From a bacterium (GTDB lineage Bacteria; Pseudomonadota; Gammaproteobacteria; Pseudomonadales; Moraxellaceae): a DNA stretch of 64,000 nt. The notes under the pieces were generated by a model that saw only the letters and a program-made list of their open reading frames with translations, made no database searches and had not been told where the DNA came from. Each line of letters opens with the position of its first letter. Positions within the stretch are counted from its first letter, which is position 1. This document shows positions 311-21,965 of this stretch, in pieces. Made by a program: the position numbers and the translations under genes. Where the stretch lies: contig JAQSDB010000002.1 of assembly GCA_029945725.1 (NCBI GenBank), positions 558,001 through 622,000 on the forward strand, given 5' to 3'.

Positions 311-2938
311 ATGAAAAGCGCCGCCATCCGCGAAGCCTTTCTCCGTTTTTTCGAAGAAAAGGGCCACACCCGTGTGGCCTCCAGTTCGCTGATTCCAGTC
401 AATGATCCCACCCTGTTGTTTACCAATGCGGGGATGAATCAGTTCAAGGATTGTTTTCTTGGGCTCGACAAGCGCAGCTATACGCGCGCTACCTCTTCAC
501 AAAAATGCGTACGCGCCGGTGGAAAGCATAACGACCTTGAAAACGTGGGTTATACCGCGCGTCACCACACTTTTTTTGAAATGCTGGGTAATTTCAGCTT
601 TGGTGATTACTTCAAGCAGGATGCGATTCATTACGCGTGGGAGTTTCTGACTTCGCCGGGCTGGCTGAACATTCCCCGGGAAAAACTTTGGGTCACGGTT
701 TACGCCACTGACGATGAAGCGTATGCGCTTTGGCTGAATGACGTGGGGGTACCGGCAGAACGTATTATCCGTATCGGCGATAACAAGGGTGCGGCCTATG
801 CATCTGATAATTTCTGGGCTATGGGTGATACCGGTCCTTGCGGACCCTGTACGGAAATTTTCTACGATCACGGTGCCGGGATTGCAGGTGGTCCGCCGGG
901 CTCGCCGGATGAAGACGGTGATCGTTACATTGAAATCTGGAACAATGTTTTCATGCAGTTCAACCGTACCTCTGACGGTGTGCTGCATCCATTGCCGGCA
1001 CCGTCCGTAGATACCGGTATGGGGCTGGAGCGTATTTCAGCGGTGATGCAGCATGTGCATGCCAACTATGACATTGACCTGTTTCAGTGTTTGTTGAATG
1101 GAGCGGCGGCGGCGATTGGTTGCCAGAATGAAAATCAGGCTTCCTTGAAAGTTGTCGCTGACCATATTCGTTCCTGCTCCTTTCTGATTGCTGACGGGGT
1201 TGTGCCATCGAATGAAGGTCGTGGTTATGTGCTGCGTCGCATCATTCGCCGCGCCTGCCGTCACGGCAACAAGCTGGGCGCCAATGGTCCGTTTTTCTAC
1301 AGGATTGTGGCGGCTCTTGCGGCGGAAATGGGTGAAGCCTACCCGGAGTTGAAGGCACAGCAGGCGCAGATTGAGCGCACGCTGAAAAACGAGGAAGAAC
1401 AGTTTGCCAAGACTCTGGATCAGGGGCTGAAAATTCTCGAACAGGATTTGGCCGATCTCAAGGGTAATGAGATTCCTGGTGAAACGGCTTTCCTGCTTTA
1501 CGACACCTATGGCTTTCCGCTTGATCTCACGGCAGATATTGCGCGTGAGCGCGGCCTTGCGGTTGATGATGCTGGCTTTGAAAAATGCATGGCAGCACAG
1601 CGTGAACGCTCACGCGCCTCCTCCAGTTTTGATCTCGACTACAACACGCTGATCAAGGTTGAGGGTAATACTCGTTTCCAGGGCTACGAGGGAACGACGG
1701 GACAGGGGCGTGTTATTGCCTTGTTCAAGGGGGCCGACAGCGTTGAGGTATTGAGCGAAGGCGAGCAGGGCCTTGTCGTTCTGGATGCTTCGCCTTTTTA
1801 CGCCGAAAGCGGCGGTCAGGCCGGTGATGCCGGCTATCTTGATACGGGTAGTAACCGTTTTGAAGTGCGCGATACCACCAAAGCCGGGGGGGCTCATTTG
1901 CATCACGGACTGGTGACGGTAGGTGTTGTGAAAGTGGGCGACAGTGTGTCAGCTCAAGTAGATGCTGCGCTGCGCGCCAACACGGCACGCAATCATTCTG
2001 CAACACACCTTCTGCACGCAGCCTTGCGTCAGGTGCTGGGCACACATGTACAGCAAAAGGGCTCGCTGGTGTCGGCTGACTATCTGCGTTTTGATTTTTC
2101 GCAGCCGGAAGCTATCAAGGCTGAGCAGCTGGATGCCATTGAGGCGCTGGTGAACGCCGAAGTGCTGGGTAATAACCCGGTACATACCGAGCTGGCCGAT
2201 ATTGAGACGGCATGTGCCAAGGGAGCGATGGCACTCTTTGGTGAAAAATATGGTGATACTGTACGTGTACTCAGCATGGGAACCCCGGGGTTTTCGATAG
2301 AGCTTTGTGGCGGCACGCATGTGTCTCGTACGGGCGATATTGGCCTGTTCAAAATTACCAGTGAAAGTGGTGTGGCGGCTGGTGTTCGTCGTATTGAGGC
2401 GAAAACCGGCAAGGGCGCTTTGGCTTTTGTGAAAGCCGAAGAAAAGACACTGGATGAAGTGGCGTCAGTTGTGCGCGCGCCGGTTGGTCAGGCTGCGGAG
2501 AAAGTCCGGCAGCTTTCTGAACGTAACCGTGAGCTTGAGAAAGAGCTTGAGCGTTTGAAAATGAAGCTTGCCGCTTCAGCGGGCGATGATTTGTTGAATA
2601 GCGCAATCAGCTTGGGTGGAGCAAAGTTGCTCGCCGCACGTCTTGATGGCGCTGATCCAAAAAGCCTGCGCGATACCATGGATCAGCTTCGTAACAAGCT
2701 GGGCTCCTGTGTGGTGGTGCTGTCGGCTGTAGTGGATGGCAAGGTCAGTCTGGTGGTTGGCGTGAGTGCTGATCTGACAGCAAAAGTGAAGGCCGGTGAG
2801 CTGGTGAATTTTGTGGCACTGCAGGTGGGGGGCAAAGGTGGTGGTCGCCCTGATATGGCCCAGGCGGGCGGTACTGATGCTTCAAAATTGTCCGAGGCTC
2901 TGGCTTCGGTGCAAGGTTTTGTCGGCGAAAGAATCTGA
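311..2938 (+). CDS. alaS: Alanine--tRNA ligase
   Basis: 875 aa; [44 protein letters not shown]-terminal [14 protein letters not shown]. Confidence 0.98.
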
Positions 2939-2979: not shown

Positions 2980-4206
2980 ATGGCATTAATTGTTCAGAAA
3001 TACGGCGGTACGTCTGTAGGTACGCCTGAGCGTATTGAGGCAGTGGCGGAACGCGTCAAGCGCTGGAAAGACAAGGGTCACGATCTTGTAGTGGTGCTCT
3101 CGGCCATGAGTGGCGAAACCAATCGTCTGATTGCACTGGCCAAAGCCATTTCGCCGGAGCCGGACCCGCGTGAGCTGGATGTCATGGTTTCCACGGGTGA
3201 GCAGGTCACGATTGCGTTGCTTGCCATGGCGTTGAAGAAAATTGGTGTTGATGCCAGATCCTATACCGGAGCGCAGGTCGCTATTCATACGGACAGCTCG
3301 CACACCAAGGCGCGTATTGAGTCGATTGACGATGCCAGGATGCGTGCTGATTTGGCCGCTGGACGTGTCGTTATTGTGGCTGGCTTTCAGGGTGTGGATC
3401 CTGGCGGCAATATTACGACGCTGGGGCGTGGTGGTTCTGATACTACCGGTGTGGCGCTGGCGGCGGCATTGAAGGCTGATGAGTGCCAGATTTACACGGA
3501 TGTTGATGGTGTTTATACCACCGACCCGCGGGTGGTGCCGCAGGCGCGCCGTCTGGAACGCATCACGTTTGAAGAAATGCTGGAGATGGCATCGCTAGGC
3601 TCCAAGGTCCTGCAAATACGTTCGGTAGAGTTTGCAGGCAAATACAATGTTCCTTTACGTGTGCTTTCAAGCTTCAAAGATGAAGGTGATGGCACCCTGA
3701 TTACTGTTGATGAGGAAACCATGGAACAGCCCGTTATTTCTGGTATCGCCTTCGCTCGTGACGAGGCCAAGATCACTGTGCGTGGTGTCCCGGACACCCC
3801 CGGTATTGCCTACCGTATCCTTGGACCTATCGGTAATGCCAATATCGAAGTCGATATGATCGTGCAGAACGTGGCCGCTGATAACACCACTGATTTCACC
3901 TTTACGGTGGCACGTGGCGAACTCAAGAAAGCGCTGACCGCACTTGAGCCTGTATGTAAGGAAATCGGTGCTCGTGAAGTGGTGGGTGACGAGAAGATAT
4001 GCAAGGTGTCGATGGTGGGGGTGGGGATGCGCTCACATGCCGGTGTCGCCAGTCAGATGTTTGGCACCCTGGCAAAAGAGGGCATCAATATCCAGATGAT
4101 CTCCACTTCCGAGATCAAGATTTCTGTGGTGATCGATGAGAAGTATCTTGAGTTGGCCGTGCGCTCCCTGCATACGGAGTTTGGGCTGGATCAGCCTCCT
4201 GCTTGA
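2980..4206 (+). CDS. lysC: Aspartate kinase
   Basis: 408 aa; [22 protein letters not shown], tandem ACT domains at C-terminus; follows alaS. Confidence 0.97.
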
Positions 4207-4375: not shown

Positions 4376-4573
4376 ATGCTGATTTTGACTCGCCGAGTGG
4401 GTGAAACCCTTATGGTGGGGGATGAGGTCACCGTGACGGTGCTCGGTGTAAAGGGTAATCAGGTTCGTATTGGTGTGAACGCGCCCAAAGAGGTCGCTGT
4501 GCATCGTGAAGAAATCTATCAACGTATTCAGCGCGAAAAGCAGGGCGATGCTCAGGAAGAGCTTGAGGACTGA
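4376..4573 (+). CDS. csrA: Carbon storage regulator CsrA
   Basis: 65 aa; [51 protein letters not shown]. Confidence 0.98.
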
Positions 4574-4669: not shown

Positions 4670-4925
4670 GCATTTTGTCAGTTCCTTCTGACCCATCCTG
4701 GCGGCTTTGATCAATCCTTGATCGCATCCTTGCGCCTTGTGATTAGTATCGTTATCGGCCGGTTTTACGTCTGCGGGTGATCACCCGAGTTCGTGTAGGA
4801 AATTGACCATGGGGTGCTTCGTGCCCTTATGTGCGCTGATGATGCTAAATCACTGCTTTTCTGAATTTTTTTGTGGGTTTCGCCTTTTCAAGCTGGGCCC
4901 GCATGCGTATCATTGCCCGCTCTGT

Positions 4926-5016
4926 GGAGAGGTGACCGAGTGGCCGAAGGTGCTCCCCTGCTAAGGGAGTAGGGGTCATAAGCCCCTCGAGGGTTCGAAT
5001 CCCTCCTTCTCCGCCA
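4926..5016 (+). tRNA. tRNA-Ser (anticodon GCT)
   Basis: 91-nt class II tRNA: GGAGAGG acceptor, anticodon loop CTGCTAA, long variable arm, GGTTCGAATCC T-arm, encoded CCA end. Confidence 0.95.
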
Positions 5017-5732
5017 TTATAATGAGACGGCTGTTTTCTCAACCAAATCAATAGGTTGGGGGGGTGGCTGTTTTTATTTCTACCACACGTTTTTACCATG
5101 CGCAGGTGTTTGATAACTACGCCGGCCGATAACAATAGATAGATCTCCTAAAAAAGCCCGAGGCTACTCAGTGATGAGAGGTCTTGGGCTTTTTCATTTA
5201 TGTCGCCAAACCAATATGTTTCTGGGTTTCTGGCTCGCGCAACTCTTGGCCTTTCCCCCTTGCTTATGACTCCGAGTGTCCTGTGCCCGATAGGGTATCG
5301 CATGGCATTAGGCAGGCTCAGTCGTACAGGCTATGACGTGCTGGTGGCGCGCGGCGCCATTTTCGATGATTGATACCCCTGCCACGAACTGGTTCAGCTC
5401 CCTCTTGTTTGATTCTGACTCTGTGGCCAATTTGACCCCTTGCCACGCCATGCTATTGGTTTCGATGCACAGCGCAGGTGAGTGGAGAGGCTTGATCCAG
5501 GTCAATGACGCTTGTAGTTGTATTGGCTGATGATGATCAAAGACCTCTCAGTGCCAGACGATGAGAGTTGCTGTCTTGTTGGTTTGCGTCCTGCCAGTGA
5601 CGGTGGCGTGCCACTTGTGGCCGCCCATCTAAAAATCACCTGACTTTAGTTCTATCTACTAGGGTGATGTGGTGGACCTTTTTGTTTTTCAAAGAAAATG
5701 GCGATTAATTTAAAGTCGAAAGGAGAATGCCA

Positions 5733-5912
5733 ATGAGCAAGTCTATGCGCCCCATCATGAGTTTTTTCAGAGAGGAAGAAGGCGTTACTGCAATTGAGTA
5801 CGGTCTGATTGCGGCCCTGATCGCGGTGGTGATTGTGGCGGCAGTAAAGAGCGTTGGTGCTGATGTAAATTCGGCATTCGAGTTGGTTCACACAAAGCTG
5901 ACGGGCGCCTGA
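5733..5912 (+). CDS. flp: Flp/Fap-type pilin, first copy
   Basis: MSKSMRPIMSFFREEEGVTAIEYGLIAALIAVVIVAAVKSVG..; Flp G^xTAIEYGLIA prepilin motif; AGGAGA ribosome-binding site upstream. Confidence 0.93.
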   Translation: MSKSMRPIMSFFREEEGVTAIEYGLIAALIAVVIVAAVKSVGADVNSAFELVHTKLTGA

Positions 5913-6098
5913 GGAGCTATGACTCATAAGGTGTTTTTACTTTTTTTGGTTTTTTTCCCTGCTTTTCTTATGTTTTTTTAATTAATAAAGAAAATGGCAA
6001 TCTTTATTGACGCCAATCAATTTTATCCTTTTGAGACTTTGATAGCCTGAAAAAGAAGTCGTTTAACACAAATTTTTCCAACAGTAAGGAGATTCTCG

Positions 6099-6278
6099 AT
6101 GAACAAGCTGATGAATTCCGTCATGAAGTTTTTCCGTGAGGAAGATGGCGTTACTGCAATTGAATATGGCCTGATTGCAGCGCTGATTGCTGTAGTGATT
6201 GTGGCTGCAGTTAAAAGTGTGGGGGGGGATCTTAATACGACGTTTACCACCATTCATACCAAGCTGTCGGGCGCCTGA
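6099..6278 (+). CDS. flp: Flp/Fap-type pilin, second copy (59 aa, below the ORF-track cutoff)
   Basis: Own translation: MNKLMNSVMKFFREEDGVTAIEYGLIAALIAVVIVAAVKSVGGDLNTTFTTIHTKLSGA*; near-identical core to first pilin; AAGGAG upstream. Confidence 0.93.
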   Translation: MNKLMNSVMKFFREEDGVTAIEYGLIAALIAVVIVAAVKSVGGDLNTTFTTIHTKLSGA

Positions 6279-6344
6279 GAAGTGGTGTATTGCCGGTGGG
6301 CGTTGCCCGCCGGCTGCTTTTCTTCCGTGACACATCTTTATGTC

Positions 6345-6896
6345 ATGAGTGCAATCTTCATGAATTTCAGCGCAGACATGGCGGCAGGGATACTTATGGC
6401 TTCGTTGCTGATGGTAGCTGCATGGAGTGATGTCCGGTCTTTTCGTATTCCCAATGCCGTTTCTCTGGGGGGCGCCCTGATCGGTATCATCATAAGTGGG
6501 TTTCAGCACGGAGTTCATGGTGTGTTACTGGCGGCCGCAGGTTGGGCAGTCGGGTTGACTGCCCTTATGCCGCTTTATTTTCTGAGGGCCATGGGGGCTG
6601 GAGATGTAAAGCTGCTTGCCATGACGGGGGCTTTTCTCGGGTTTCCTTCGGTATTGGGCGCTATTGCTTCCACTCTTATCGCTGGCGGTGTCTTTGCGTT
6701 ATCAGTATCAGCGCTACGGGGGAAGTTATCCGAAACAGTCGATAATGTATCCGTTTTTGCTTTTCGCACCATGATGCCAGGGAAGGGGAATACATTGGCG
6801 CAAGTTGTCAGTGAGACTCCCGTCAGCGGACATCTTCCGTATGCGGTTCCCATTCTGGCAGGCACCATGACGTGGTGGGTGTTGCAACTGGTTTAG
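6345..6896 (+). CDS. cpaA: Flp prepilin peptidase CpaA/TadV (A24 family)
   Basis: AAWSDVRSFRIPNAVSLGG and GAGDVKLLAMTGAFLG (GxGD protease motif); polytopic; the start codon could also be 6282 or 6360. Confidence 0.9.
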   Translation: MSAIFMNFSADMAAGILMASLLMVAAWSDVRSFRIPNAVSLGGALIGIIISGFQHGVHGVLLAAAGWAVGLTALMPLYFLRAMGAGDVKLLAMTGAFLGFPSVLGAIASTLIAGGVFALSVSALRGKLSETVDNVSVFAFRTMMPGKGNTLAQVVSETPVSGHLPYAVPILAGTMTWWVLQLV

Positions 6897-6950
6897 TAAA
6901 ATTCTTAAGAAGCGGTTTCTGGTTTCCTACTGTCTCTGCAAGGGGTAGCG

Positions 6951-7835
6951 ATGAAAAACAATCGAGCCTTGTTCATGCTGGCGTTGTCATTGCTCATTGG
7001 CGTTATCGCCGTGGTAATGATGGCTCGCTGGATGAACGAGAAGGCGGCACTCTCCACTACCGGCGTTGTTGTCGCCGCACGCGATATTCCATTGGGAACG
7101 AGGCTTGCGCCAGAGCAATTGAAGGTTGTTGCGTGGCCATCCGGTTCCAAGCCGAGCGGAACGTTTAACGATATTCAAAAGGTTAACACTCGGGTGCTCA
7201 ACGCCAGCGTGCAGGTCGGTGAGCCTGTTCTGGAGAGCAGACTTGCCCCGATTGGCAGCAAGGGCGGGCTTTCTGCATTGATTCCAGAAGGCAAGCGTGC
7301 TGTTTCTGTCAAGGTGAAGGAGGAGTCTGGTGTTGCGGGTTTTGCGCTTCCGGGTAATTACGTTGATGTGCTGGTGAGCGCCCAGGATGAAAACGGCAGG
7401 CCGATTTCAAGGATTGTGCTGCAGCGTATTCTGGTACTGGCCATTGCGCAGGAAGCTAACCGTGATGAGACCAAACCAAAGCTGGTCAATGCGGTCACTT
7501 TAGAGGTGACGCCAGCAGAGGCAGAGCAGCTTGATCTTGCGCGCAGCATTGGGCAGTTGTCCCTGGCACTGCGTAATCAGGTTGATATGGCTGACGCGGC
7601 TACTGGCGGCGCACATCTTTCTGATCTTGTCCGCGGCAGCTCTCATCTAGAGCCACAACCCGCCCCTGCCGCCACTGATGTTGCCACTGTGCCGGCTCCA
7701 GAGATTGTTGTGGTAAAGCCGGTGCCGCGTCACAAATCGCGTGCCGTCATTGTCAAGAGCCCCGTGAAGACGGAAAAATCCGAGCAGCCGCCAGCACGCC
7801 CTTCCTATGTGGAAGGCGTGCAGGTGGGCGAATAA
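6951..7835 (+). CDS. cpaB: Flp pilus assembly protein CpaB/RcpC (SAF domain)
   Basis: TTGVVVAARDIPLGTRLAPEQLKVVAWPSG; N-terminal TM; position in Tad operon. Confidence 0.93.
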   Translation: MKNNRALFMLALSLLIGVIAVVMMARWMNEKAALSTTGVVVAARDIPLGTRLAPEQLKVVAWPSGSKPSGTFNDIQKVNTRVLNASVQVGEPVLESRLAPIGSKGGLSALIPEGKRAVSVKVKEESGVAGFALPGNYVDVLVSAQDENGRPISRIVLQRILVLAIAQEANRDETKPKLVNAVTLEVTPAEAEQLDLARSIGQLSLALRNQVDMADAATGGAHLSDLVRGSSHLEPQPAPAATDVATVPAPEIVVVKPVPRHKSRAVIVKSPVKTEKSEQPPARPSYVEGVQVGE

Positions 7836-7838
7836 TCC

Positions 7839-9473
7839 GTGGAGAGCACTGTGAGCAACATGACCTTGCTGAAGAGAAACAAACGGCCTCTGCTGCGTCA
7901 CGCGCTGGCACTGGCCGTGCTGGGCTCCTCCCTACTGGCGCCATCACTTGCGGCTGCGGCCGATTGCGTGGCGAAGAACGGCAGTGCAGTGAGCTGCGCG
8001 GCAGACACCCAATCGCTTGGCGAACTTAATCTTGCGGTTGGGCAGTCCTTGCCGCTCGATTTTTCGGCCTTGGGTGGCATTAGCCGGGTCTTTCCCGGTA
8101 ATCGTACGGTGATTGATGTCTTCCAGGATCCCAAGAGTGGTGACATCTATTTGCGTGGCAAGAAGGTTGGTACAAGTGACCTTCTGGTGTGGGCCAGCAA
8201 CCACAAGAAGTATCGTGCACAGGTCACCGTGGGCATGGATACCGGTGCGTTGGGTAGCCAGTTCGCCAGCCTTATGCCGGATGAAAAAGACATTCATGTC
8301 AGTACCATGGCGGATTCTCTCGTACTGAGTGGCTCCGTTTCCGATGCCACACGACTGAAACAGGTAGTGGCACTGGCCGAAGCCTATGTACGCGGTACCA
8401 CTCAGGAACTGGTGACCGACAGTCGTGTCTTTCAGGCGCCGGAAAATGAGCCCGGCAAAGCTGTTAGCGCACGTAGTGGTAATGACAGTACTGGCGCACG
8501 CCCGGTCAGTCTGACGCAGTCAGGCCTTGGGGCCAATCGAGTAATCAATCTGCTCACTGTGCGCGGTTCGCAGCAAGTGATGCTGGAAGTGAAGATTGCC
8601 GAAGTATCAAAATCATTCCTGGATCGCTTGGGTGTTGATCTCAAAGGCTCAACCTCATCAGGGGGCTGGACCTATGGCATTTTGAGTGGGCTCCTGTCAG
8701 GCACCGGCACTGCCAATAACACGTTGCTTTCAGCCGTGAAGGTGCTTGGTTCCAAGGAGATCTCAGTTGATGCGCAGAAAAAAGACGAGCTCGTAAAGAT
8801 ACTGGCAGAACCGAATATTGTGGCCATCAGTGGTCAGGAAGGCAGCTTTCTTTCTGGTGGCAAGGTATTCATTCCGACAGGACGTGACCGCGATGGCACC
8901 ATCACGCTGGAAGAAAAGGAATACGGTGTTGGTTTGAAGTTTCTCCCGACCGTACTGGGTGACAGCATCATCGACTTGCATGTGAGTCCTGAGGTATCGG
9001 AGCTCAGCAAGGATGGCTCGGCTTTCACAGCCGGTGGCATTACAACCGTGTTCCCGTCGATCACGACACGCCGTGCTTCCACCACTGTTCAGTTGCGGGA
9101 TGGCGAATCATTTGCGATTGCCGGACTGCTCAAAAACAACGTGACCGAAGTCATCAAGCGCTTCCCGTTGCTGGGTGATTTACCGCTGGTGGGGGCGCTG
9201 TTCCGTTCCAGTGAGTTCCAGTCCGAGAAGACCGAGTTGTTGTTCGTGATTACCCCGCATCTGGTGAGGGCAGCTGCCGCACCGGTTCCGCTGCCAACCG
9301 ATAACTTCAAGGCACCGAGTCAGACGAACTTCATGCTGAACGGACGCCTGGAAGGTTTCCATAGCGGAAAAGATAAAGAAAAGAGCGGCGATAGCCAGCA
9401 GAACAATGCGCCGGCAGCGACGACCACCCCACCGGGCAAAGGCGGCGCTGCAGCGCCAGCGGGCAAGAACTGA
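7839..9473 (+). CDS. cpaC: Secretin CpaC/RcpA
   Basis: 544 aa; signal peptide, secretin domain (VPLLGDLPLVGALFRSSEFQSEKTELLFVITPHLV); the start could be the GTG at 7839/7851 or ATG 7860. Confidence 0.93.
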   Translation: MESTVSNMTLLKRNKRPLLRHALALAVLGSSLLAPSLAAAADCVAKNGSAVSCAADTQSLGELNLAVGQSLPLDFSALGGISRVFPGNRTVIDVFQDPKSGDIYLRGKKVGTSDLLVWASNHKKYRAQVTVGMDTGALGSQFASLMPDEKDIHVSTMADSLVLSGSVSDATRLKQVVALAEAYVRGTTQELVTDSRVFQAPENEPGKAVSARSGNDSTGARPVSLTQSGLGANRVINLLTVRGSQQVMLEVKIAEVSKSFLDRLGVDLKGSTSSGGWTYGILSGLLSGTGTANNTLLSAVKVLGSKEISVDAQKKDELVKILAEPNIVAISGQEGSFLSGGKVFIPTGRDRDGTITLEEKEYGVGLKFLPTVLGDSIIDLHVSPEVSELSKDGSAFTAGGITTVFPSITTRRASTTVQLRDGESFAIAGLLKNNVTEVIKRFPLLGDLPLVGALFRSSEFQSEKTELLFVITPHLVRAAAAPVPLPTDNFKAPSQTNFMLNGRLEGFHSGKDKEKSGDSQQNNAPAATTTPPGKGGAAAPAGKN

Positions 9474-9487
9474 GCAGGAGTTCCACC

Positions 9488-9742
9488 ATGAAACGCATTT
9501 TCTTGACGTGTCTTGCTGCAAGCCTGCTTGCAGCCTGCAGTACTACGCCCTATCTGGATCGTCATTTCGGTGAGGCGTCGCGGCAGGCCATGAGTCGCCA
9601 GATAATCAGCTCTGAAGCCAAGAACGGCCCGCAAAAAATGGATGGTCAGGCCGCTAACTCGGTGATTGACCGGTACCATAAATCGTACGCCGTGCCTCCA
9701 GAGCCGGTGAATGTCTTCAATATCGGCGTTGGCGCGCACTGA
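9488..9742 (+). CDS. Small Tad-associated lipoprotein (84 aa)
   Basis: MKRIFLTCLAASLLAACSTTPYLDRHFGEASRQAMSRQII.. with LAAC lipobox; between cpaC and cpaE where CpaD-like small lipoproteins often sit. Confidence 0.8.
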   Translation: MKRIFLTCLAASLLAACSTTPYLDRHFGEASRQAMSRQIISSEAKNGPQKMDGQAANSVIDRYHKSYAVPPEPVNVFNIGVGAH

Positions 9743-9769
9743 TAACCCGTTGTTACCGGAGCAGAGTAC

Positions 9770-10924
9770 GTGAAGATCCTGTTGATATCGGATGACAAGC
9801 GCGCCCGTGACCGCATAACAGCGGCTCTTGGTGAGCAGGCCGTTGAGCATGAGATTACGGTTGTCGATACACGCACATTGCAGAAGCCTGATGAACTCGC
9901 TGCCGTGCCGGCGGACTTGATGGTGATAGAGGGGCTGGGCAGGGAAGCGGCTCCATGGGCTGCGCTGGAGCGGATTGTTGCCAGATGCCCGCAACTGCCT
10001 ATTGTTGTGGCTACCTCGCAACAAAGCGCCGAGCTTTTGCAGCTGGCCATGCGTAGTGGTGTTCGCGAAGTCGTCAATATCGACGAAGCCAGTTTGCGTG
10101 ATGTCATGCAGCGCATGCTGGCACGAATTGCTGCAGCAAATGGTCATGCCGCTGGCAAGATTATTGCCTTTATCCCGGCCAAATTCTCGTGTGGCGCCAC
10201 TTTTCTGGCTACATCACTGGGATACTCGCTTAGCAAGCGGTCCGGAAAGCGGGTGCTCCTTATTGATCTCAACATGGAGGGTGGTGATGCCGCCCTGTTT
10301 GTCAGTGACAAGGAACCAGAGACTACGTTGGCCGATGTATGCCGGCAGATACAGCGTCTTGATGCCTCTTTTCTTGCGGCTTGCACAGTGACGCCTTACC
10401 CGGGTTTTTCCGTGCTGGCGGCGCCTGGCGATCCGGAGTCGGCTCTACTGGTCAAGCCGGAGCATCTATCAGCTATTTTGCACGTGGCGGTTAACAATTA
10501 TGATTATGTGATACTGGACGTTGACCGTGTTATGGGGGGCGTGAGCATTCATGCTCTTGATGCCGCCAACATAATCTTTGTCGTAATCCAGGCAGTTCTG
10601 CCCTATCTGCGTGATGCCCGCCGATTACTGAAAATATTTTCAGGCCTTGGATATTCTCAGGAAAAAAACCGCTTTGTGGTTAACCGTCATGACAAGGTAG
10701 CGGATATTTCTGTAGAAGATATCGAGAAGTCGCTTGAAGTAAAGATAAGTCACGTTATCCCGAACAGCTACCGCAATGTTATTAGCTCGGTCAATCAGGG
10801 AGTGCCGCTGGCGGTATTGGTGCCAAATGATCCAGTCGTGCATGGCATTGAGGCAATTGCCGATACATTCTGTAATAAGCCAGCAGAGTCACGTAGCTGG
10901 ATTAATCGAATGTTTAATAAATAA
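9770..10924 (+). CDS. cpaE: Pilus assembly protein CpaE/TadZ (receiver-like plus ParA/MinD-like ATPase)
   Basis: 384 aa; N-terminal receiver-like region, [19 protein letters not shown] and [10 protein letters not shown]; degenerate Walker [12 protein letters not shown]. Confidence 0.9.
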
Positions 10925-10959
10925 ATTTATTCAGGGTCGAACCACAGGACACAATAAAA

Positions 10960-12303
10960 ATGTCACTTCGCGACCAGTTTCTCCCGGACGGAAGCGTGCA
11001 GGTAGCCGCTCCTTCTATAAACAGCGGACATCCTGAATACCAGGCTCTCAAGCTGCGCATTCATCAGGAGTTGCTGAAGCGTGCAGATCTTTCTGCCATG
11101 GAGGCCATGTCGGGTGATCGCCTGCGTGAGGAGATTCGCAATATTGTGCAGCGTTTGCTGGTGGATGAGCGCGTGGTCATTAATGATCAGGAACGCCAGC
11201 AGCTAGTGCGTGATATCCAGAATGAGGTACTGGGCCTCGGTCCGCTTGAGCCGCTTCTGGCCGATTCCACCATTTCGGATATTCTCGTAAACACGGCAGG
11301 CCAGGTCTATGTCGAGCGTCGCGGCAAGCTGGAGCTGACTGATACCCGTTTTACGGATAATGCCCATTTGCTCAAGATTATCGACAAGATCGTCTCGCGT
11401 ATTGGTCGTCGCGTGGATGAATCCAGTCCGATGGTGGATGCGCGCCTGCCGGACGGTTCGCGTGTCAATGCCATTATCCCGCCGCTCGCCATTGATGGCC
11501 CTTTGCTGTCCATTCGCCGCTTTTCAGTGAAACCTTTGACGATGCAGGACTTACTGCAATACAAGTCACTGACCGAAGGAATGGCGCAGGTACTGCAGGG
11601 TCTGGTTGCTGCCAAGGTAAATATCCTGATTTCCGGTGGCACCGGCTCTGGCAAGACTACGTTGCTGAATGTGATGTCATGTTCCATTCCTTCCAGTGAG
11701 CGGATCATTACTATTGAGGATGCGGCCGAGCTACAGCTGCAGCAGACCCATGTGGTGCGACTGGAGACGAGGCCGCCGAATATTGAAGGTCGTGGCGAAG
11801 TTACGCAGCGGGCACTGGTGAGAAACTCTCTGCGCATGCGTCCGGACCGCATTATTGTCGGTGAAGTGCGTGGTGGCGAGGCTCTGGACATGCTGCAGGC
11901 CATGAATACCGGGCATGAAGGCTCCATGACGACTATTCATGCCAATACTCCACGCGATGCACTGACGCGACTCGAAAACATGGTGGGAATGGCGGGTTTA
12001 AACTTGCCGCCCAAAGTCATGCGTCAGCAGATCAGTTCGGCAATCACTGTGGTTATCCAGATTTCGCGTCAGTCTGACGGCAAGCGTCGCGTGGTCAGCA
12101 TTCAGGAGCTCACCGGGCTGGAGGCGGATATCATGACCATGCAGGAAATATTCATTTACGAGCAGACCGGTGTTGACGAAAGCGGAGTCGTGCAGGGATT
12201 TTTTCACGCTACCGGTATCCGGCCAAAATTCATGCAGCGCCTGCAGACGCGTGGCATCAAGCTGGACGAGGATGTTTTCAATCCAGCCAACCGGTTTTCC
12301 TGA
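10960..12303 (+). CDS. cpaF: Tad secretion ATPase CpaF/TadA
   Basis: 447 aa; [16 protein letters not shown] Walker [37 protein letters not shown]. Confidence 0.97.
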
Positions 12304-12312
12304 GGGACGGGC

Positions 12313-13290
12313 ATGATAACCAGCTATTACGTTTTTATTATTCTGGGATTCCTCGCTGTTGTGATGCTTTCGGAGGGCGTCCTCCTCGCGTGGAACAGCT
12401 ATCGCGGACCGAAGGCTCGCAGCATTGCCAAGCGCTTGCGGGTACTGTCCGCTGGTGCACCGATGGAGCAAGAGCACAAGAGCATCATCAAGACTCGTTT
12501 GCTTAGCACAAGTCCCGTGCTGGAATCGGTACTGCTTTCCATTCCACGCATTCATGTGCTGGATCGCTTGCTGGTGCAAGCCGGTATAGACATGACGGTT
12601 GCATCCTTTCTGCTGGCGTCTATCGGGTTTTATGGAGTTGGTGTCGCGGCACTGGTGCTGGCGGGGGTGCCAACGGCGCTGGCGGCAGCAAGTGCCGCGC
12701 CCCTCGTTTTTTTGCCACTGGTTTATGCCATGAACCAGCGCACGAGGCGTATTAAAAAGATTGAAGAGCAGTTGCCTGACGCGCTTGATCTCATCGGCCG
12801 CGCCTTGCGTGCGGGTCATGCTTTCCAAGGGGCATTTCATATGGTTGCTGATGAAGCGCCTGCGCCGGTCTGCGAAGAGTTCAAGACGGCATTCGATGAA
12901 ATAAATTTCGGTGTATCCGTGCAAGAGGCGCTGATGAACATGGCGACGCGAGTGCCCAGTACAGACCTGCGCTATTTTGTCATTGCGGTGATGATCCAGC
13001 GGGATACCGGCGGTAACCTCGCTGAGCTGCTCGACAACATCAGTCGCTTGATGCGCGACCGCATGAAGCTCCTTGGTACGGTTCGCGTGCTTGCTGCAGA
13101 AGGAAAACTCTCGGCCTGGATTTTGTCTCTTCTGCCCTTTGCGCTTGCGCTCGCAATGACCATCATCAATCCCGGATTCCTTAATATCCTTTTTACGGAT
13201 CCGCTAGGACAGCGCCTGCTTCTTGGTGCCGGTGTACTTATGCTAACCGGGATTATCTGGTTGTGGCGACTTACCAAGATACGTGTATGA
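12313..13290 (+). CDS. tadB: Tad inner membrane protein TadB (T2SSF domain)
   Basis: 325 aa; IEEQLPDALDLIGRALRAGHAFQGAFHMVADEAPAPV..; TM segments; follows cpaF. Confidence 0.95.
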   Translation: MITSYYVFIILGFLAVVMLSEGVLLAWNSYRGPKARSIAKRLRVLSAGAPMEQEHKSIIKTRLLSTSPVLESVLLSIPRIHVLDRLLVQAGIDMTVASFLLASIGFYGVGVAALVLAGVPTALAAASAAPLVFLPLVYAMNQRTRRIKKIEEQLPDALDLIGRALRAGHAFQGAFHMVADEAPAPVCEEFKTAFDEINFGVSVQEALMNMATRVPSTDLRYFVIAVMIQRDTGGNLAELLDNISRLMRDRMKLLGTVRVLAAEGKLSAWILSLLPFALALAMTIINPGFLNILFTDPLGQRLLLGAGVLMLTGIIWLWRLTKIRV

Positions 13291-13299
13291 GGCAATGAT

Positions 13300-14241
13300 A
13301 TGACACTTGTTCAGTTTCTTTTTCTTGCCCTGCTTTTTCTCGTAGCCAGTGGTCTTGCCTATGCCATTATCCTGCTGATGATGCGCAGTCCGCTGGAAAA
13401 GCGTCTTGCCAGCCTTGCCTCTGAAGCAGAGCGTTCTGAGACAAAGTCGGAGCCGGAGTGGCATCAGCGAGTTGTGGAAATAGCGGGTCCGATCGGCCGG
13501 CTTGCTTTGCCAAAGGAAGGCTGGGAACGATCATCACTGCGTGTTCATTTCATGAATGCGGGTTTTCGTGGTGCATCAGCTCCGGCTATTTATTTTGCGA
13601 CAAAAACCGTTTTGACCTTTGCGATGCCGGCGATTTTTATTACTCATCTCGGTATCTGGCAATCAGAAGTCAATTCGCTGTCAATACTGGCCGGGATTGT
13701 CGGCTTGGCCGCATTTGGCTATTACCTGCCTACGGTTATTCTTTCGTATCTTGTCAAGCATCGTGAGCGGGAGCTTTTCGAAAATTTCCCGGATGCCCTT
13801 GATCTCATGACCGTCTGTGTTGAGGCGGGCCTTTCACTCGACGCCGTGATTGCTAAAGCCAGCCAGGAAATTCGTCTCAACAGTAATGCGCTGGCCGATG
13901 AGCTGCATCTGGTTACACTGGAGTTGCATGCCGGAGCCTCGCGAGAGCAGGCCTTTCGGAACCTTGCCCTGCGTACCGGTCTTGAGGAAATAGACTCGCT
14001 GGTGGCCATGCTTATTCAGGCCGATCGATTTGGTACCAGCGTTGCAGACTCCTTGCGCGTACATGCAGACTCCCTGCGCAGTCGCCGTCGTTTGCGTGCG
14101 GAAGAAAGTGCCGCAAAAATTCCAACGAAGATGCTCTTTCCGTTGATCTTCTTCATTTTTCCTTCACTACTCGTGGTATTGCTTGGCCCCGCCATTATCA
14201 GCATCCACGCCGTTCTGCTTCCAACATTGTCGGGTCAGTAG
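13300..14241 (+). CDS. tadC: Tad inner membrane protein TadC (T2SSF domain)
   Basis: 313 aa; FPDALDLMTVCVEAGLSLDAVIAKASQEI; ends with hydrophobic segment. Confidence 0.95.
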   Translation: MTLVQFLFLALLFLVASGLAYAIILLMMRSPLEKRLASLASEAERSETKSEPEWHQRVVEIAGPIGRLALPKEGWERSSLRVHFMNAGFRGASAPAIYFATKTVLTFAMPAIFITHLGIWQSEVNSLSILAGIVGLAAFGYYLPTVILSYLVKHRERELFENFPDALDLMTVCVEAGLSLDAVIAKASQEIRLNSNALADELHLVTLELHAGASREQAFRNLALRTGLEEIDSLVAMLIQADRFGTSVADSLRVHADSLRSRRRLRAEESAAKIPTKMLFPLIFFIFPSLLVVLLGPAIISIHAVLLPTLSGQ

Positions 14242-14332
14242 CATGGAATATTGACCTGAGGCAAAGCGTTAGCTGTCACTCACTGCGAAACTGAAAAAAC
14301 TATATTGAAATAACCACCGGAGGAAATACAAC

Positions 14333-14587
14333 ATGTCCAATCATATCATCGACCAAGAACGTCAGGGGCTGTGGATTGCGGCTACTTTTGTGATCGCGCT
14401 GCTGGCGCTGGTGTTGTCGTTCGTTAATTTGGATCGCAACCATGCGCTGGCAGTTGGTACACAGATTGAAGTTCTGGGGTTGCACGACCACATTACTTCA
14501 GTAGAGCGCAAGGTGAACGGTAGTGCTGCAACGGCAACACCTGCCCAGGCCCCCGCAGCTGCTCCGGCTGTTGAGCCAGCCAAGTAA
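14333..14587 (+). CDS. Small single-TM protein of unknown function in Tad locus (84 aa)
   Basis: MSNHIIDQERQGLWIAATFVIALLALVLSFVNLDRNHALAVGTQIEVLGLHDHITSVERKV then Ala/Pro-rich tail; CCGGAGG ribosome-binding site upstream. Confidence 0.8.
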   Translation: MSNHIIDQERQGLWIAATFVIALLALVLSFVNLDRNHALAVGTQIEVLGLHDHITSVERKVNGSAATATPAQAPAAAPAVEPAK

Positions 14588-14642
14588 GTGATTACGGCGG
14601 GCCTGTATCCGGCCCGCCGCCATTCACACTCTTGCACACGCC

Positions 14643-15122
14643 ATGATCAAGTTCTCGTCGCAACGCAGTCATCACGGCAACGCCATACTTGAGTTTGCCT
14701 TGGTGGCGATGTTGTTTATCACGATTCTGCTGACCATTGCAGAGTTGAGTCTTATGTTCTGGGTCACGCTTAGCATGCAGCATGCTGTACGTGAGGGTGC
14801 GCGTTTTTCGATCACAGGTCTTACCACGGGAGCGCCACCCACTGACCCCACCCGGTACAACGCCGTAATTGCCCGAATCCGGGATCAGTCGATGGGGCTG
14901 TACGACGCGGTTTCTCCGGTGATTGTGGTGCAGACAGTCGATAATTCGGGTGTCCTGAATGTCGTTGGTGGCAAGTCCTTTGGTGATCCCGGCCAGATCG
15001 TTGTTATCCGTCTTGATTGCCAATGGCCGCTGATCACGCCTTTTCTCAAACCCTTCTTCGCGAATGGCCGTTATGATTTTTCCGTCAGTGCGACGATGCG
15101 CAATGAAAATTTCACACCATGA
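14643..15122 (+). CDS. tadE: TadE-like pseudopilin
   Basis: 159 aa; SQRSHHGNAILEFALVAMLFITILLTIAELSLMFWVTLSMQHAVREGARF. Confidence 0.9.
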   Translation: MIKFSSQRSHHGNAILEFALVAMLFITILLTIAELSLMFWVTLSMQHAVREGARFSITGLTTGAPPTDPTRYNAVIARIRDQSMGLYDAVSPVIVVQTVDNSGVLNVVGGKSFGDPGQIVVIRLDCQWPLITPFLKPFFANGRYDFSVSATMRNENFTP

Positions 15123-15655
15123 AAATTCATGCTCGTGAACGGGGCGTAAGCCTGATTGAGTTTGCACTGGTGCTGCCCATTATGTTGCTGCTGATGCTGG
15201 CTGTCTTCGATTACGGGCGTGCCATCCAGGCGAACAACATCATCATTAACATGAGCCGGGAGGGCGGCAATCTTGTCGCCCGAACATCGGCCACACCACA
15301 GTTTGTCATGGCGGCACTGGCCAGCACGTCTTCACCCTTGGTCATGAGTACTTACGGTGGCATTGTCATTACCCGGCTCACGGCCAATGCGGACGATTCC
15401 AGTCAGGCCTCCGTGGTGGCGCAGTCGCGATGGATCGGGGGGCGGGCTGTTGTCAGCCATATCTGGAATGGTTGCGGTACCTGGATCAGCGGTGAGTGCA
15501 AAGTACCCACCACGCCACCAGTAGTTACCTTGCCGGTGCTGATGCTGAAGCAGGGTGATGAAGTTTATGCGGTTGAAGTGTTCTATCGTTACGACCCGGT
15601 TTTCAGTTTTGCCATGCCAACAGAAGCCAATCTGTATTCGCTGACCCTGCTTTGA
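15119..15655 (+). CDS. tadF: TadE/TadF-like pseudopilin
   Basis: 178 aa; ERGVSLIEFALVLPIMLLLMLAVFDYGRAIQANNIIINMSREGGNLVAR; overlaps the upstream gene by 4 nt (ATGA). Confidence 0.88.
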   Translation: MKIHARERGVSLIEFALVLPIMLLLMLAVFDYGRAIQANNIIINMSREGGNLVARTSATPQFVMAALASTSSPLVMSTYGGIVITRLTANADDSSQASVVAQSRWIGGRAVVSHIWNGCGTWISGECKVPTTPPVVTLPVLMLKQGDEVYAVEVFYRYDPVFSFAMPTEANLYSLTLL

Positions 15656-15659
15656 GGAA

Positions 15660-17033
15660 GTGATGATGAGTAGCAGATTCATGACACCAGTGCGCGGCAG
15701 TGTACTGCTGATGTTTGCTCTTTCTCTGGTCATGCTGATCGGATTTGCGGGGCTGGTCGTTGATGCCGGCATCGGATACGGAGTGAAGGCGAAGCTCAAC
15801 TCTGCTGTTGATGCTGCGAGCATCGCTGCTGCCCGGGCAGTGGCGACAGGTGCAACGGATGATTTGCGCACTCAGGCCGCCATCAAGGAAGGCACACGGT
15901 TTTATTACGCCAATTTCCCGGCAAACTATCTGGGGGCCACCATACAGCCACCCACGGTGACTGCAGAGAAGGTTGGTGGTAAATGGTTTGTAACGGTTGC
16001 AGGTACCGCCTCTACCCCAACTTATCTGATGCGCGTTTTCGGTGTAAGGCAGCTTGATGTCCGTGCCTTGGGTCAGGCTGTGCGCCGTGATCTGGACATG
16101 ATGCTGGTGCTCGATACTTCGGGCTCATTGCAGTCGGTATTTCCCCAAGTAAAATCGTCGGCGGTGAACTTCGTCAACAAGTTCAATAATGATGCCGACC
16201 GGCTCGGGTTGGTGGTGTTTGCCGATGGTGCCACGCTGCCAGTGCCCATCAACAAGACCGCAGCGCGCGGCTTCAACAAGACCACGATAGTCAGCCAGAT
16301 CAATGCACAGAGCTCAAGCGGCTGGACGTCGACAGGCGAGGCAATGCGGCTCGCGCTCAATGACCTGAATGCGGTTCCTGCGATCTTGCAGTCGAGTTTG
16401 CGCGTCATTGTGCTTTTCAGTGACGGTGCTCCCAATACGCCTGCCGCCATCTGGCCACGTCACAATAGCTCCGGCACGCAGACTGGCACGGTGAGCGCAT
16501 CATTTCCGTCGACAACGGGTAGTGGCAATCCCCTGCTCTGTACCAACAGCTCACCATGCACCTTGTACCGCTATAACTCCCGCAGTACGGCATTGAGTGG
16601 TAGCTACAGTGATATCAATCGTCTGCCGGTAACGGCAGGTGCGACGTTTGACAACAAGCCCCTTTCCAGCTTCAACAACAAGCGCACCTTTTCGCCTGCC
16701 TTGGCAGCGGCAAACTCTGCCAACCTCTGCAACGTGAACAAGGCTGCACGTAATATGCTGGAAAACATTGCCAATGATGCCCGCGGACAGAAAGTCGTGG
16801 TGTTCACTCTCGGCCTGGGCGCCCAACTCAATGGCTTTGAGAGCGTGACCAGTTGCAGTTATACCCAGGCCGAGTGGGGTTCCAATATTCTCAAACGGGT
16901 GGCCAATGCATCCGGGGTTGATACTTACAACGCAGATCAGCCGACAGGTACCTATGTCTATGCCGCGAATGCTTCTGATCTTGATACGGCATTCAACAAG
17001 ATTGCCAGCGAGATCATCCGCCTTTCCCAGTGA
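15660..17033 (+). CDS. tadG: TadG-like protein with von Willebrand factor A domain
   Basis: 457 aa; N-terminal RGSVLLMFALSLVMLIGFAGLVVDAGIGYGVKAKLNSAVDAASIAAA and VWA MIDAS DMMLVLDTSGSLQS. Confidence 0.93.
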   Translation: MMMSSRFMTPVRGSVLLMFALSLVMLIGFAGLVVDAGIGYGVKAKLNSAVDAASIAAARAVATGATDDLRTQAAIKEGTRFYYANFPANYLGATIQPPTVTAEKVGGKWFVTVAGTASTPTYLMRVFGVRQLDVRALGQAVRRDLDMMLVLDTSGSLQSVFPQVKSSAVNFVNKFNNDADRLGLVVFADGATLPVPINKTAARGFNKTTIVSQINAQSSSGWTSTGEAMRLALNDLNAVPAILQSSLRVIVLFSDGAPNTPAAIWPRHNSSGTQTGTVSASFPSTTGSGNPLLCTNSSPCTLYRYNSRSTALSGSYSDINRLPVTAGATFDNKPLSSFNNKRTFSPALAAANSANLCNVNKAARNMLENIANDARGQKVVVFTLGLGAQLNGFESVTSCSYTQAEWGSNILKRVANASGVDTYNADQPTGTYVYAANASDLDTAFNKIASEIIRLSQ

Positions 17034-17053
17034 GAATGAGTGCTGCAGGAATG

Positions 17054-17080
17054 AAAAAGCCGGTGATGCCGGGCTTTTTT
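17054..17080 (+). terminator. Terminator at end of Tad locus
   Basis: AAAAAGCCGG-TGAT-GCCGGGCTTTTTT. Confidence 0.75.
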
Positions 17081-17297
17081 ACCTTTAAGTCGGCCGGTTT
17101 TCTTGACTGCTGGCTGGCTGGTTGGATGGAGGCTTGGGGCGGGTGCCGGGAGGCAGATTTGGTCGGACTTGCTCGTTTTTTCGCCATTTTACCGGGCCAC
17201 TTGCAGTATCAGTGGCAATGCTCCTGGAAATAAGGAAAAGCGGCGTTAAAACTCGTTGACAGCGGGGGTGGCGCTCACGATAATTCGCCGCCTCATC

Positions 17298-17374
17298 GCG
17301 CTGGTAGCTCAGTTGGATAGAGTATCTGGCTACGAACCAGAGGGTCGGGGGTTCGAATCCCTCCCAGCGCACCA
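17298..17374 (+). tRNA. tRNA-Arg (anticodon ACG)
   Basis: 77 nt; GCGCTGG...CCAGCGC acceptor, anticodon loop CTACGAA, GGTTCGAATCC T-arm, encoded CCA. Confidence 0.96.
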
Positions 17375-17382
17375 AATAAAGC

Positions 17383-17420
17383 AAAAAGCCGGTCAACCAG
17401 TCATGGTTGACCGGCTTTTT
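17383..17420 (+). terminator. Terminator after tRNA-Arg
   Basis: AAAAAGCCGGTCAACCA-GTCA-TGGTTGACCGGCTTTTT: perfect 17-bp stem. Confidence 0.9.
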
Positions 17421-17635
17421 GCTATCTGCAATTCCAGAAAAACCGTTGCCGTGCCGCGTCTCGTTTATAGCCCCGTTGTTCCCGGATTTGAGTCCCTTCT
17501 CGGGCTTTTTGTTGCCAGGGTGCAGGGATATCTGCTTTACGGGGGGCGATTTCAAACAAGTCACTGGCTTCGCTGGTAATCAGGTATCTTTCATTCATTG
17601 CATTTAATTCAATAAACCCTTGGAAGGCGTTCGGC

Positions 17636-18814
17636 ATGCTTGGCTTCCTGAGCAGATACGTTCCGTCCTGGCGCATGAGCCGCTGCACTGGCTTGATTAA
17701 TGATTACAGACCGGTAATCAGCATAGTCGCCTATTTTTTTGTTTTATGTTTCTGCTTTCGATACGGCCAGGAAATAATGCGGGGCGGTGATGCCTGGAAG
17801 ACGGGGGACTGGCTCATAAATTATGAAGGTGGCCCCGTCCGCCGGGGGCTGGTTGGCCAGGTCCTTTACGAGTTTTCGCGCCTGGGGACAAACCTGCTCT
17901 GGTCGGCATTTGTTTTACAAGTGGCCATATATCTTTTGGTTGCACACCTCACTTTAAAGCTGTTCTTCTCCGTCGATCGTGAAGCTTCCTGGTTATTGTT
18001 GATATTTTCCCCTGCATTTATTTTCTTGTTCCCGTTTTATGATGTTCAGGGTGGGTTCAGAAAAGAAATAATACTGTTTTTATCCTTTTGCGTACTGGCT
18101 TGTGGCTTGCTGGATGGAAAGCTCCGTCACGGGCACGTCATAGCGTCGCTTTTGATATATGGCGTTGCCGTCTTTTCGCATGAACTGGCGGCATTCGCCA
18201 TTTTCTTTATGGTTTTCCTGCTGCTGCAGGCAAAAACAAATACGGCCAATCACGCCATGATCAATGCTTATGCCGTCGGTTATATTTTGCTGGCTGTGGG
18301 CGGGGTGGGGTTTGCACTGGCCAATCCCGGCAATGGTGTGGTGAAAAGCGAAGTTTGCAACTCGCTACTAATGGCAGGACTGAAAGACAGTATTTGCAGT
18401 GGCGCCATTGAGTGGCTTCAGTTTGACTCTGGCTACGGTATGCGGGAAGTAAGAAGTTATCTGTCCGGATATTTAGTTGTGTATCCATTATTGTTTTTTC
18501 TGGCATGTTTTCCCGTCTTTCTGACCGGCTGGTACAGGAAGAGGGTTATTTTCCTGATGCTCGGGTTTTTCTCGTTATTGCCTTTATTTGTTGTGGCGGT
18601 GGATTGGGGCAGGTGGATCCATGTTTATGTTTTCATGGTATCCATCACGCTATTGCTTGAGTCCAGCAACGCGACAGTAATGATTGGCAAATTTCCTGTG
18701 CTTGGCCTTTTGGCCTATATGGGCCTCTGGAGTATTCCTCATTGCTGCACCGCAAGGCCGGGGCTGGGCATGATTGATGTGGCATATCTTGCGTTAAGAA
18801 AGCTGGTATTTTGA
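17636..18814 (+). CDS. Polytopic membrane protein of unknown function
   Basis: 392 aa, many hydrophobic segments; GDWLINYEGGPVRRGLVGQVL motif resembling integral membrane proteins linked to polysaccharide/glycosyl transfer; AT-richer than neighbours. Confidence 0.75.
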   Translation: MLGFLSRYVPSWRMSRCTGLINDYRPVISIVAYFFVLCFCFRYGQEIMRGGDAWKTGDWLINYEGGPVRRGLVGQVLYEFSRLGTNLLWSAFVLQVAIYLLVAHLTLKLFFSVDREASWLLLIFSPAFIFLFPFYDVQGGFRKEIILFLSFCVLACGLLDGKLRHGHVIASLLIYGVAVFSHELAAFAIFFMVFLLLQAKTNTANHAMINAYAVGYILLAVGGVGFALANPGNGVVKSEVCNSLLMAGLKDSICSGAIEWLQFDSGYGMREVRSYLSGYLVVYPLLFFLACFPVFLTGWYRKRVIFLMLGFFSLLPLFVVAVDWGRWIHVYVFMVSITLLLESSNATVMIGKFPVLGLLAYMGLWSIPHCCTARPGLGMIDVAYLALRKLVF

Positions 18815-18965
18815 TGACCATCACCCACCTAAATCCTGCAAGCTTGCCGTTGTTGCATTGAGGCAGGGAGAGGCAAGCGAATAACCCGGTTTCAGCGGCT
18901 GGACAGCCTTGTGCAAGGCGCTCCCGGTTAAGAGGCTGGTACGAGTAACGATCGAAGGAGCGGGC

Positions 18966-20396
18966 ATGACGAATAACAAGGCCGGTTCGGCGTACCGCGG
19001 TGGTTTGCCGCTGATTCACAATCGCCCGTTCGATGAAATCGCGGTCGGTGACAGCGCCTGCATGGAGCGGATGCTGACCCAGCAGGATATCCAGCTGTTC
19101 GCGGTGTTGTCCGGTGACAATAATCCGCAGCATCTGGATGCCGGGTTCGCGGCATCGACGCGCTTCCACGGCATCATCGCGCAAGGCATGTGGGGCGGTG
19201 CGCTGATCTCGGCTGTACTGGGCACCCGCCTGCCAGGTCCGGGCACGATCTACAAAGGCCAGACCCTGCGTTTCCTGGGGCCGATACGGCTTGGCGATAC
19301 CCTGACCGTCCGCGTCACCGTGATGTCGCGCGAGGTGGATCTCAAGCTGGTTCGCCTGGCCTGTGCCTGCATCAACCAGCACGGCGACACCGTGATCGAG
19401 GGGGAGGCTGAAGTGATTGCCCCGGCCGGGAAGATCGAGCTTGCCAGCACGACCCTGCCCGAGATCAGGCTCAGCGGAGGTGGCGGGCTGCAGCATGTGC
19501 TGGATCTTGTCCGCCCCCTGGATGCAATCCGCATGGCAGTGGTGCATCCCTGTGATGCGCTTAGCCTGACGGCGGCGCTGGAGGCGCGGACAGCGGGACT
19601 GATCGAGCCCGTGCTGGTCGCCCCGCGCGCCAGACTGGAAGCACTGGCGCTGGAGGAGGGGCTGGATCTGTCCGGTCTCGCCATTGAAGATGTGCCGCAC
19701 AGCCATGCGGCGGCAGCGCGTGCTGTCGAGCTGGTGCTGCGCGGCGAGGTCGAGGCGCTGATGAAGGGCAGCCTGCACACCGACGAGCTGATGGGTGCGG
19801 TCGTGGCGTCCGGCACGGGCCTGCGCACCAAGCGTCGCATCAGTCACTGCTATCTGATGCAAACGCCCGCCTACCCGCGCCCCTTCATTCTCACTGATGC
19901 CGCCATCAACATCGCGCCTTCGCTGGATGACAAGGCGGACATCGTGCGCAATGCCATTGACCTGGCGCATGCCATCGGCGTGGAACAGCCGCGTGTGGCC
20001 ATCCTTGCGGCAGTGGAAACCGTCAGCCCGCGCATGCCGGCAACGCTGGACGCGGCAGCCCTGTGCAAGATGGCGGATCGCGGCCAGATTACGGGCGCCT
20101 TGCTCGACGGACCTCTGGCGTTCGATAACGCCATCTCGGCGGCGGCGGCGCACATCAAGGGGATTGTCTCCGAGGTGGCGGGGCGTGCCGATATCCTGGT
20201 GGTACCCGATCTCGAAAGCGGCAACATGCTGGCCAAACAGCTTGAGTATCTGAGCGGAGCGGCGAGCGCGGGCATTGTGCTGGGGGCCCGTGTGCCCATC
20301 GTGCTGACCAGTCGCGCCGATACGCGGGAGACGCGTATTGCTTCTTGTGCGGTCGCGCTGTTGCTGGTGCAGCACTACAAGGTCCTGCCGCCATGA
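18966..20396 (+). CDS. Bifunctional MaoC-like enoyl-CoA hydratase / phosphate acyltransferase
   Basis: N-terminal hot-dog/MaoC segment (FAVLSGDNNPQHLD..FHGIIAQGMWGGALIS) fused to phosphate acetyl/butyryltransferase (EALMKGSLHTDELM..ILTDAAINIAPSLDDKADIVRNAIDLA). Confidence 0.9.
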   Translation: MTNNKAGSAYRGGLPLIHNRPFDEIAVGDSACMERMLTQQDIQLFAVLSGDNNPQHLDAGFAASTRFHGIIAQGMWGGALISAVLGTRLPGPGTIYKGQTLRFLGPIRLGDTLTVRVTVMSREVDLKLVRLACACINQHGDTVIEGEAEVIAPAGKIELASTTLPEIRLSGGGGLQHVLDLVRPLDAIRMAVVHPCDALSLTAALEARTAGLIEPVLVAPRARLEALALEEGLDLSGLAIEDVPHSHAAAARAVELVLRGEVEALMKGSLHTDELMGAVVASGTGLRTKRRISHCYLMQTPAYPRPFILTDAAINIAPSLDDKADIVRNAIDLAHAIGVEQPRVAILAAVETVSPRMPATLDAAALCKMADRGQITGALLDGPLAFDNAISAAAAHIKGIVSEVAGRADILVVPDLESGNMLAKQLEYLSGAASAGIVLGARVPIVLTSRADTRETRIASCAVALLLVQHYKVLPP

Positions 20397-21646: not shown

Positions 21647-21965
21647 CGGAGCCGGCGGCAGGTTTTCTTGATCGTGTGTGGTTCGGCTGCAATTTCCCGA
21701 TCTCGCCGTGATCGGTGGCGTGTTTTTTTTATCTCGCGGGCACGCTTTCGTAAAACACGGGCAACCATGGCATGAGGCGGCGACCGGTTTTCCCCGGGCA
21801 CAGTCCCGTGTCCGCCGCGCGGGATTGTGCCGGGTCTCTTAACTGCCGGTGTGTACCAGGGCACGGCGGCCGGGCAGCAGTTGTTGCTGTCGGCTGTCAT
21901 TGCCGGCTCCGCGGCTGCGCCGGTATGCTTGCCGCCTCGCCAGGCACAGACGGAACCAGACACTC

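Follow-up and report, generated by a model that had tools for sequence, protein, structure and literature searches.

The window, i.e., the whole 64-kb stretch of DNA analyzed here, contains only two tRNA genes, tRNA-Ser(GCT) (4926..5016) and tRNA-Arg(ACG) (17298..17374). ARAGORN and Rfam agree on both, with the Rfam spans being slightly shorter (4926-5013 and 17298-17371). They are located on the forward strand, as are the other features described in the following for positions 311-21848 of the window. The left flank is formed by alaS (311..2938; Pfam tRNA-synt_2c, E 2.6e-222), the aspartokinase gene lysC (2980..4206), sharing ~90% identity with its counterparts in congeners, and csrA (4376..4573; Pfam CsrA, E 1.2e-25). 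These genes are followed by tRNA-Ser(GCT), a Tad/Flp pilus locus comprising 14 genes (5733-17033), all of them oriented in one direction, and tRNA-Arg(ACG), giving a tRNA-to-tRNA interval of 12.3 kb. Both the tRNA calls and the Pfam assignments agree with the initial annotation, which had placed a Tad cluster between these two tRNA genes downstream of alaS-lysC-csrA.

The locus opens with two tandem Flp pilin genes (5733..5912 and 6099..6278), both displaying the GVTAIEYGLI motif as read from the sequence and both matched in related Tad loci, the first one by tblastn. Next to them, a TadV prepilin peptidase (6282..6896; Pfam Peptidase_A24, E 1.7e-17) is encoded, the start of which is uncertain, with the mechanical ORF beginning at 6282. 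It is followed by CpaB/RcpC (6951..7835; TIGR03177 with 247 bits, above cut-off, as well as Pfam RcpC and SAF), the CpaC/RcpA secretin (7839..9473; Pfam Secretin, E 1.1e-40), and a small lipoprotein with a LAAC lipobox (9488..9742), which was detected by tblastn and is common to betaproteobacterial Tad loci. The MinD-like ATPase CpaE/TadZ (9770..10924; Pfam AAA_31, E 2.7e-10) and the assembly ATPase CpaF/TadA (10960..12303; Pfam T2SSE, E 3.3e-69), the latter also placed in a tree, precede the inner-membrane platform proteins TadB (12313..13290) and TadC (13300..14241), both matching Pfam T2SSF. An ORF in the gap between tadC and tadE encodes an 84-aa one-helix protein (14333..14587). The 3' end consists of a TadE-type pseudopilin (14643..15122; Pfam TadE, E 1.1e-11), a second, TadF-like pseudopilin of the TadE type (15119..15655; Pfam TadE, E 6.9e-14), and TadG with a VWA domain (15660..17033; Pfam Tad and VWA). 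NCBIfam provided no name for the small proteins tested, including the one Flp tested. No gene was assigned within the ~700 bp before flp1 and the ~220 bp after tadG, the latter containing a terminator-like hairpin (17060..17082) that scored weakly above shuffles.

The reading frames of all genes of the locus are intact, and TadA/CpaF, TadB, TadC, Flp, TadV, RcpA/CpaC, RcpC/CpaB, TadZ/CpaE, and TadE-type proteins are present. CpaF was the sole full-length match in the genome, with all remaining matches being of partial length and not exceeding 46% identity; judged by this ATPase, the locus is the only one of its kind in the genome. Based on family membership, it should build one Flp pilus, with two tandem pilins, for surface attachment. 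The gene content resembles that of the tad locus or widespread colonization island (Tad, Flp, type IVc), in which Flp, TadV, RcpC/CpaB, the secretin, TadZ, TadA, TadB, TadC, TadE-type proteins, and TadG are likewise encoded in one locus. Unlike that system, the locus of the window has no TadD and carries the 84-aa one-helix protein instead; a further difference is the position of the pseudopilin genes and tadG at its 3' end. The TPR protein TadD was not found in the locus, where the gap between tadC and tadE holds just the 84-aa protein. In Vogesella, a member of a sister lineage, a TPR TadD-like gene lies directly 3' of tadC, i.e., at the place taken here by the 84-aa protein, which was seen only in the window and in the genomes G002, G004, and G223 among the Tad loci searched. 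TadD is considered accessory rather than required in the Tad model (PMC6668835). The description of the locus as complete in the initial annotation consequently stands for the components listed above and their reading frames, and is better put as complete except TadD.

In order to evaluate the history of the site, its equivalent was located via LysC in 58 genomes (one per species, some of them incomplete) and the DNA downstream was compared. In four congeners (G002, G003, G004, and G008), tRNA-Ser and tRNA-Arg directly follow csrA and are separated by a gap of 132-211 bp only. Beyond the genus, the adjacent pair was also found after csrA in five genomes that represent three further genera of the family (g2, g3, and g4; G011 and G026, G024, and G025 and G036), while outside the family ten more families of the order have members with this arrangement. 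Escherichia coli K-12 displays the order alaS-csrA-serV-argVYZQ, thereby sharing the alaS-csrA-tRNA-Ser-tRNA-Arg arrangement; unlike the window, it has four tRNA-Arg genes and nothing inserted between the adjacent serV and argV. Considering this breadth of empty sites, the adjacency of the tRNA pair is, on comparative grounds, ancestral, and ~12.2 kb were inserted, as the initial annotation had proposed. A Tad locus at this tRNA site was found in no other genome examined. In G009 (L052), the two tRNA genes are inverted as a pair and located ~12 kb from csrA, and in several genera of the family one or both are no longer found beside csrA. A search for the pair in ten genomes, taken together with the loci located via LysC, showed that several members of the family have its two genes separated or at another position, so that the csrA-tRNA site is not intact everywhere.

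The inserted segment, missing from the short spacer of the congeners, extends over 5017..17250 with approximate edges. Its right edge is set by the tRNA-Arg promoter (17256..17284; TTGACA-17-GATAAT, 11/12), which is conserved in the empty-site congeners. A promoter-like element also precedes tRNA-Ser (4885..4913); it matches the consensus at 9/12 positions, which shuffles reach as well, and a similar stretch precedes tRNA-Ser of the empty-site congeners. As the tRNA-Arg promoter is common to occupied and empty sites, both tRNA genes retain their own promoters and lie, together with these, outside of the inserted DNA. The insertion should thus have cost the recipient little.

The tRNA-Ser/tRNA-Arg neighborhood is an insertion hotspot. 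Compared with the congeners G004, G001, and G007, in which a TetR-like gene is found ~50-190 bp after tRNA-Arg, the window carries a second insert of 4.5 kb directly 3' of tRNA-Arg (17375..21848). It encodes a membrane protein without Pfam match (17636-18814; 48% GC), a MaoC-phosphotransacetylase fusion (18909-20396), and an acetate kinase (20345-21646), the latter two genes having a GC content of 64.5%. This occupied 3' side of tRNA-Arg was absent from the initial annotation. At the same position, G003 has ~6 kb including a TerC gene, and G002 has an island with a tyrosine integrase (L037:14410-15834, minus strand), after which come type I restriction-modification genes and genes for large proteins lacking a Pfam match. 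In G043, a member of another family, tRNA-Ser and tRNA-Arg are separated by 5.3 kb of unrelated genes (L071:2317-7622), with a duplicated Arg/Ser tRNA array thereafter.

In respect to the route of insertion, the gene content of the interval between tRNA-Ser and tRNA-Arg bears out the former remark that it holds no integrase; a recognized mobile-element gene was likewise not found among its genes. Nor could a direct repeat of the tRNA-Ser 3' end be detected near the right edge. Taken together, these absences make homologous recombination in the flanks the most likely route. Recombination would have taken place in the conserved flanks, i.e., csrA and tRNA-Ser to the left and tRNA-Arg to the right, and the incoming DNA would have stemmed from a relative already carrying the island. 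Many transfer hotspots are known to lack recognized mobile elements and to display recombination at flanking core genes (PMC5635113); the site described here resembles them in its variable cargo, its conserved flanks, and the lack of a recognized mobile element. A donor or an intermediate with a Tad locus at this tRNA site was not found among the genomes examined. Our preferred reading, to which we assign a high probability, is the horizontal acquisition of the locus and its insertion into the tRNA-Ser/tRNA-Arg spacer, most likely through recombination in the flanks.

Alternatively, the recombinase of an earlier element may have been lost. The locus would then be a former integrase-mediated island seated at the 3' end of tRNA-Ser, with decayed mobility genes and a decayed right-hand repeat, an unlikely history that bears on nothing but the route and would agree with horizontal acquisition. 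The location on the 3' side of tRNA-Ser, the usual seat of such islands, the tyrosine integrase and restriction-modification genes 3' of tRNA-Arg in G002, and the stretches without assigned genes at both ends of the locus are consistent with it. However, the missing copy of the tRNA-Ser end near the right edge argues against this history, and the ORFs tested before flp1 gave no Pfam match. The sole long word common to both tRNA genes, the 16-bp GGGTTCGAATCCCTCC, is part of the T-arm, thus placing its second copy in the other tRNA. Since similar words of 13-18 bp are found in the tRNA genes of three empty-site congeners, it is no evidence of an attachment site. An integrase attachment repeat was not found beyond this word and was therefore rejected.

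A related Tad locus was found in G002 and G004 at a different site, common to both, and sharing 80% DNA identity over 9.8 kb. In the window genome (G000, contig C4), the flanks of this site are only 2.3 kb apart, enclosing a Sel1-repeat-like ORF, and a Tad locus is absent there. Each of the two arrangements is accordingly without Tad at the site of the other. The compact Tad loci of G002, G004, and G223, the latter belonging to another family, share the gene order and the 84-aa protein with the locus of the window, while those of G002 and G004 differ from it by their other, shared site and a different tadE/tadG end. G004 carries two Tad loci, and the Tad loci found in other congeners belong to separate lineages and are located elsewhere (L223, L224, L225, L226, and L227). 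Outside the genus, a comparable TadZ is present in very few of the family's genomes.

From TadV to TadC, the proteins of the window share 41-78% identity with those of G002 and G004, compared with 67-92% between G002 and G004. We expressed this divergence as a distance ratio, defined as the window-to-congener distance over the G002-to-G004 distance. Its median was 2.6 for seven Tad proteins versus 1.6 for 12 other proteins (rank test, p ~0.002), a comparison built on few and linked genes, in which the acetate kinase (38-39%), included among the 12, is probably a paralogue. TadE1 and TadG show 49% and 64% identity, respectively, to G223, while no full-length match of either was found in G002 and G004. 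The Tad proteins of the window are about equally distant from those of the congeners and from those of another family. In the CpaF tree, the sequences of the window, G002, G004, and G223 are nested among betaproteobacterial Tads (SH-aLRT 96), and the window joins G002 and G004 (SH-aLRT 94) before G223. Within the same tree, a Vreelandella locus groups closely with G298 (f37), which suggests, by way of a gene known to move between lineages, that Halomonadaceae belong to the order of the window genome. The initial annotation had suggested to compare the Tad phylogeny with that of the species and to inspect the csrA-tRNA-Ser-tRNA-Arg interval across relatives. Both comparisons support its insertion reading: empty sites were found, and the Tad divergence between window and congeners exceeds the core-gene prediction and is hence incongruent. 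Neither of the opposite outcomes named there, a Tad locus at the same place with congruent phylogeny in all close relatives or relatives in which the two tRNA genes were never adjacent, was borne out.

These data also bear on the question of whether a Tad locus of the genus ancestor, located as in G002 and G004, later changed its chromosomal position and came to lie at the tRNA site in this lineage. The grouping of the CpaF sequences, the shared gene order including the 84-aa protein, and the vacant G002/G004 site in the window genome point in this direction. On the other hand, relocation would leave the divergence of the Tad proteins beyond the core-gene prediction and the match of TadE1 and TadG to another family unaccounted for; in addition, G001, G003, G005, G006, and G008, some of these genomes being incomplete, yielded no TadZ closely resembling that of G002 and G004. 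An ancestral copy of the genus may have moved and subsequently evolved fast or recombined, e.g., by exchange of the tadE-tadG end, yet we regard relocation as quite improbable. With the Tad proteins of the window being about as far from those of the congeners as from those of the other family, separate acquisition appears more likely than relocation. A loss in the relatives of a Tad locus ancestral at the tRNA site, for which no supporting point was found, can be rejected as extremely unlikely, since the empty arrangement in congeners, other genera, ten families, and E. coli would require many losses.

Under the preferred reading of a separate acquisition, the ancestors of this genome would have gained a compact Tad/Flp (type IVc) locus by horizontal transfer, its lineage being nested among the betaproteobacterial Tads. 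The landing place of the locus would have been the short intergenic spacer between the ancestrally adjacent tRNA-Ser(GCT) and tRNA-Arg(ACG) genes. Base composition is uninformative in this respect, as the Tad locus and the flanking alaS-csrA region have practically the same G+C content (53.7% and 53.8%, respectively). When TadG was searched for across the class (369 genomes, E <= 1e-30), only the window's own copy was returned, and no donor was thus located. Plasmids were considered as carriers and rejected, the Tad ATPases of Burkholderia-type plasmids sharing 60-65% identity and none being close. As a tentative extension, compact Tad loci could act within the genus as repeatedly exchanged cassettes that enter different neutral sites without a recombinase, the tadE-tadG end being swapped separately; we consider this possible, if somewhat doubtful.

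Tad loci are often transferred as a single locus (PMC6668835). The locus described here is a clean and unusually well-resolved case of a familiar kind of event, and no report of Tad at the csrA-tRNA-Ser-tRNA-Arg site was among the results that the literature searches listed. While frequent Tad transfer is already known, clean cases combining empty sites in sister species, a second site in other sisters, and the lack of an integrase help to address the question of how a pilus locus of 12 kb can move although it encodes no mobility functions itself. The second Tad site and the hotspot are of modest interest in addition, and many gammaproteobacteria lend themselves to an inspection of the csrA-tRNA-Ser-tRNA-Arg site for cargo. 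Elsewhere in the window, a match to the t44 RNA was detected at 48318-48422 (Rfam RF00127, 66 bits).
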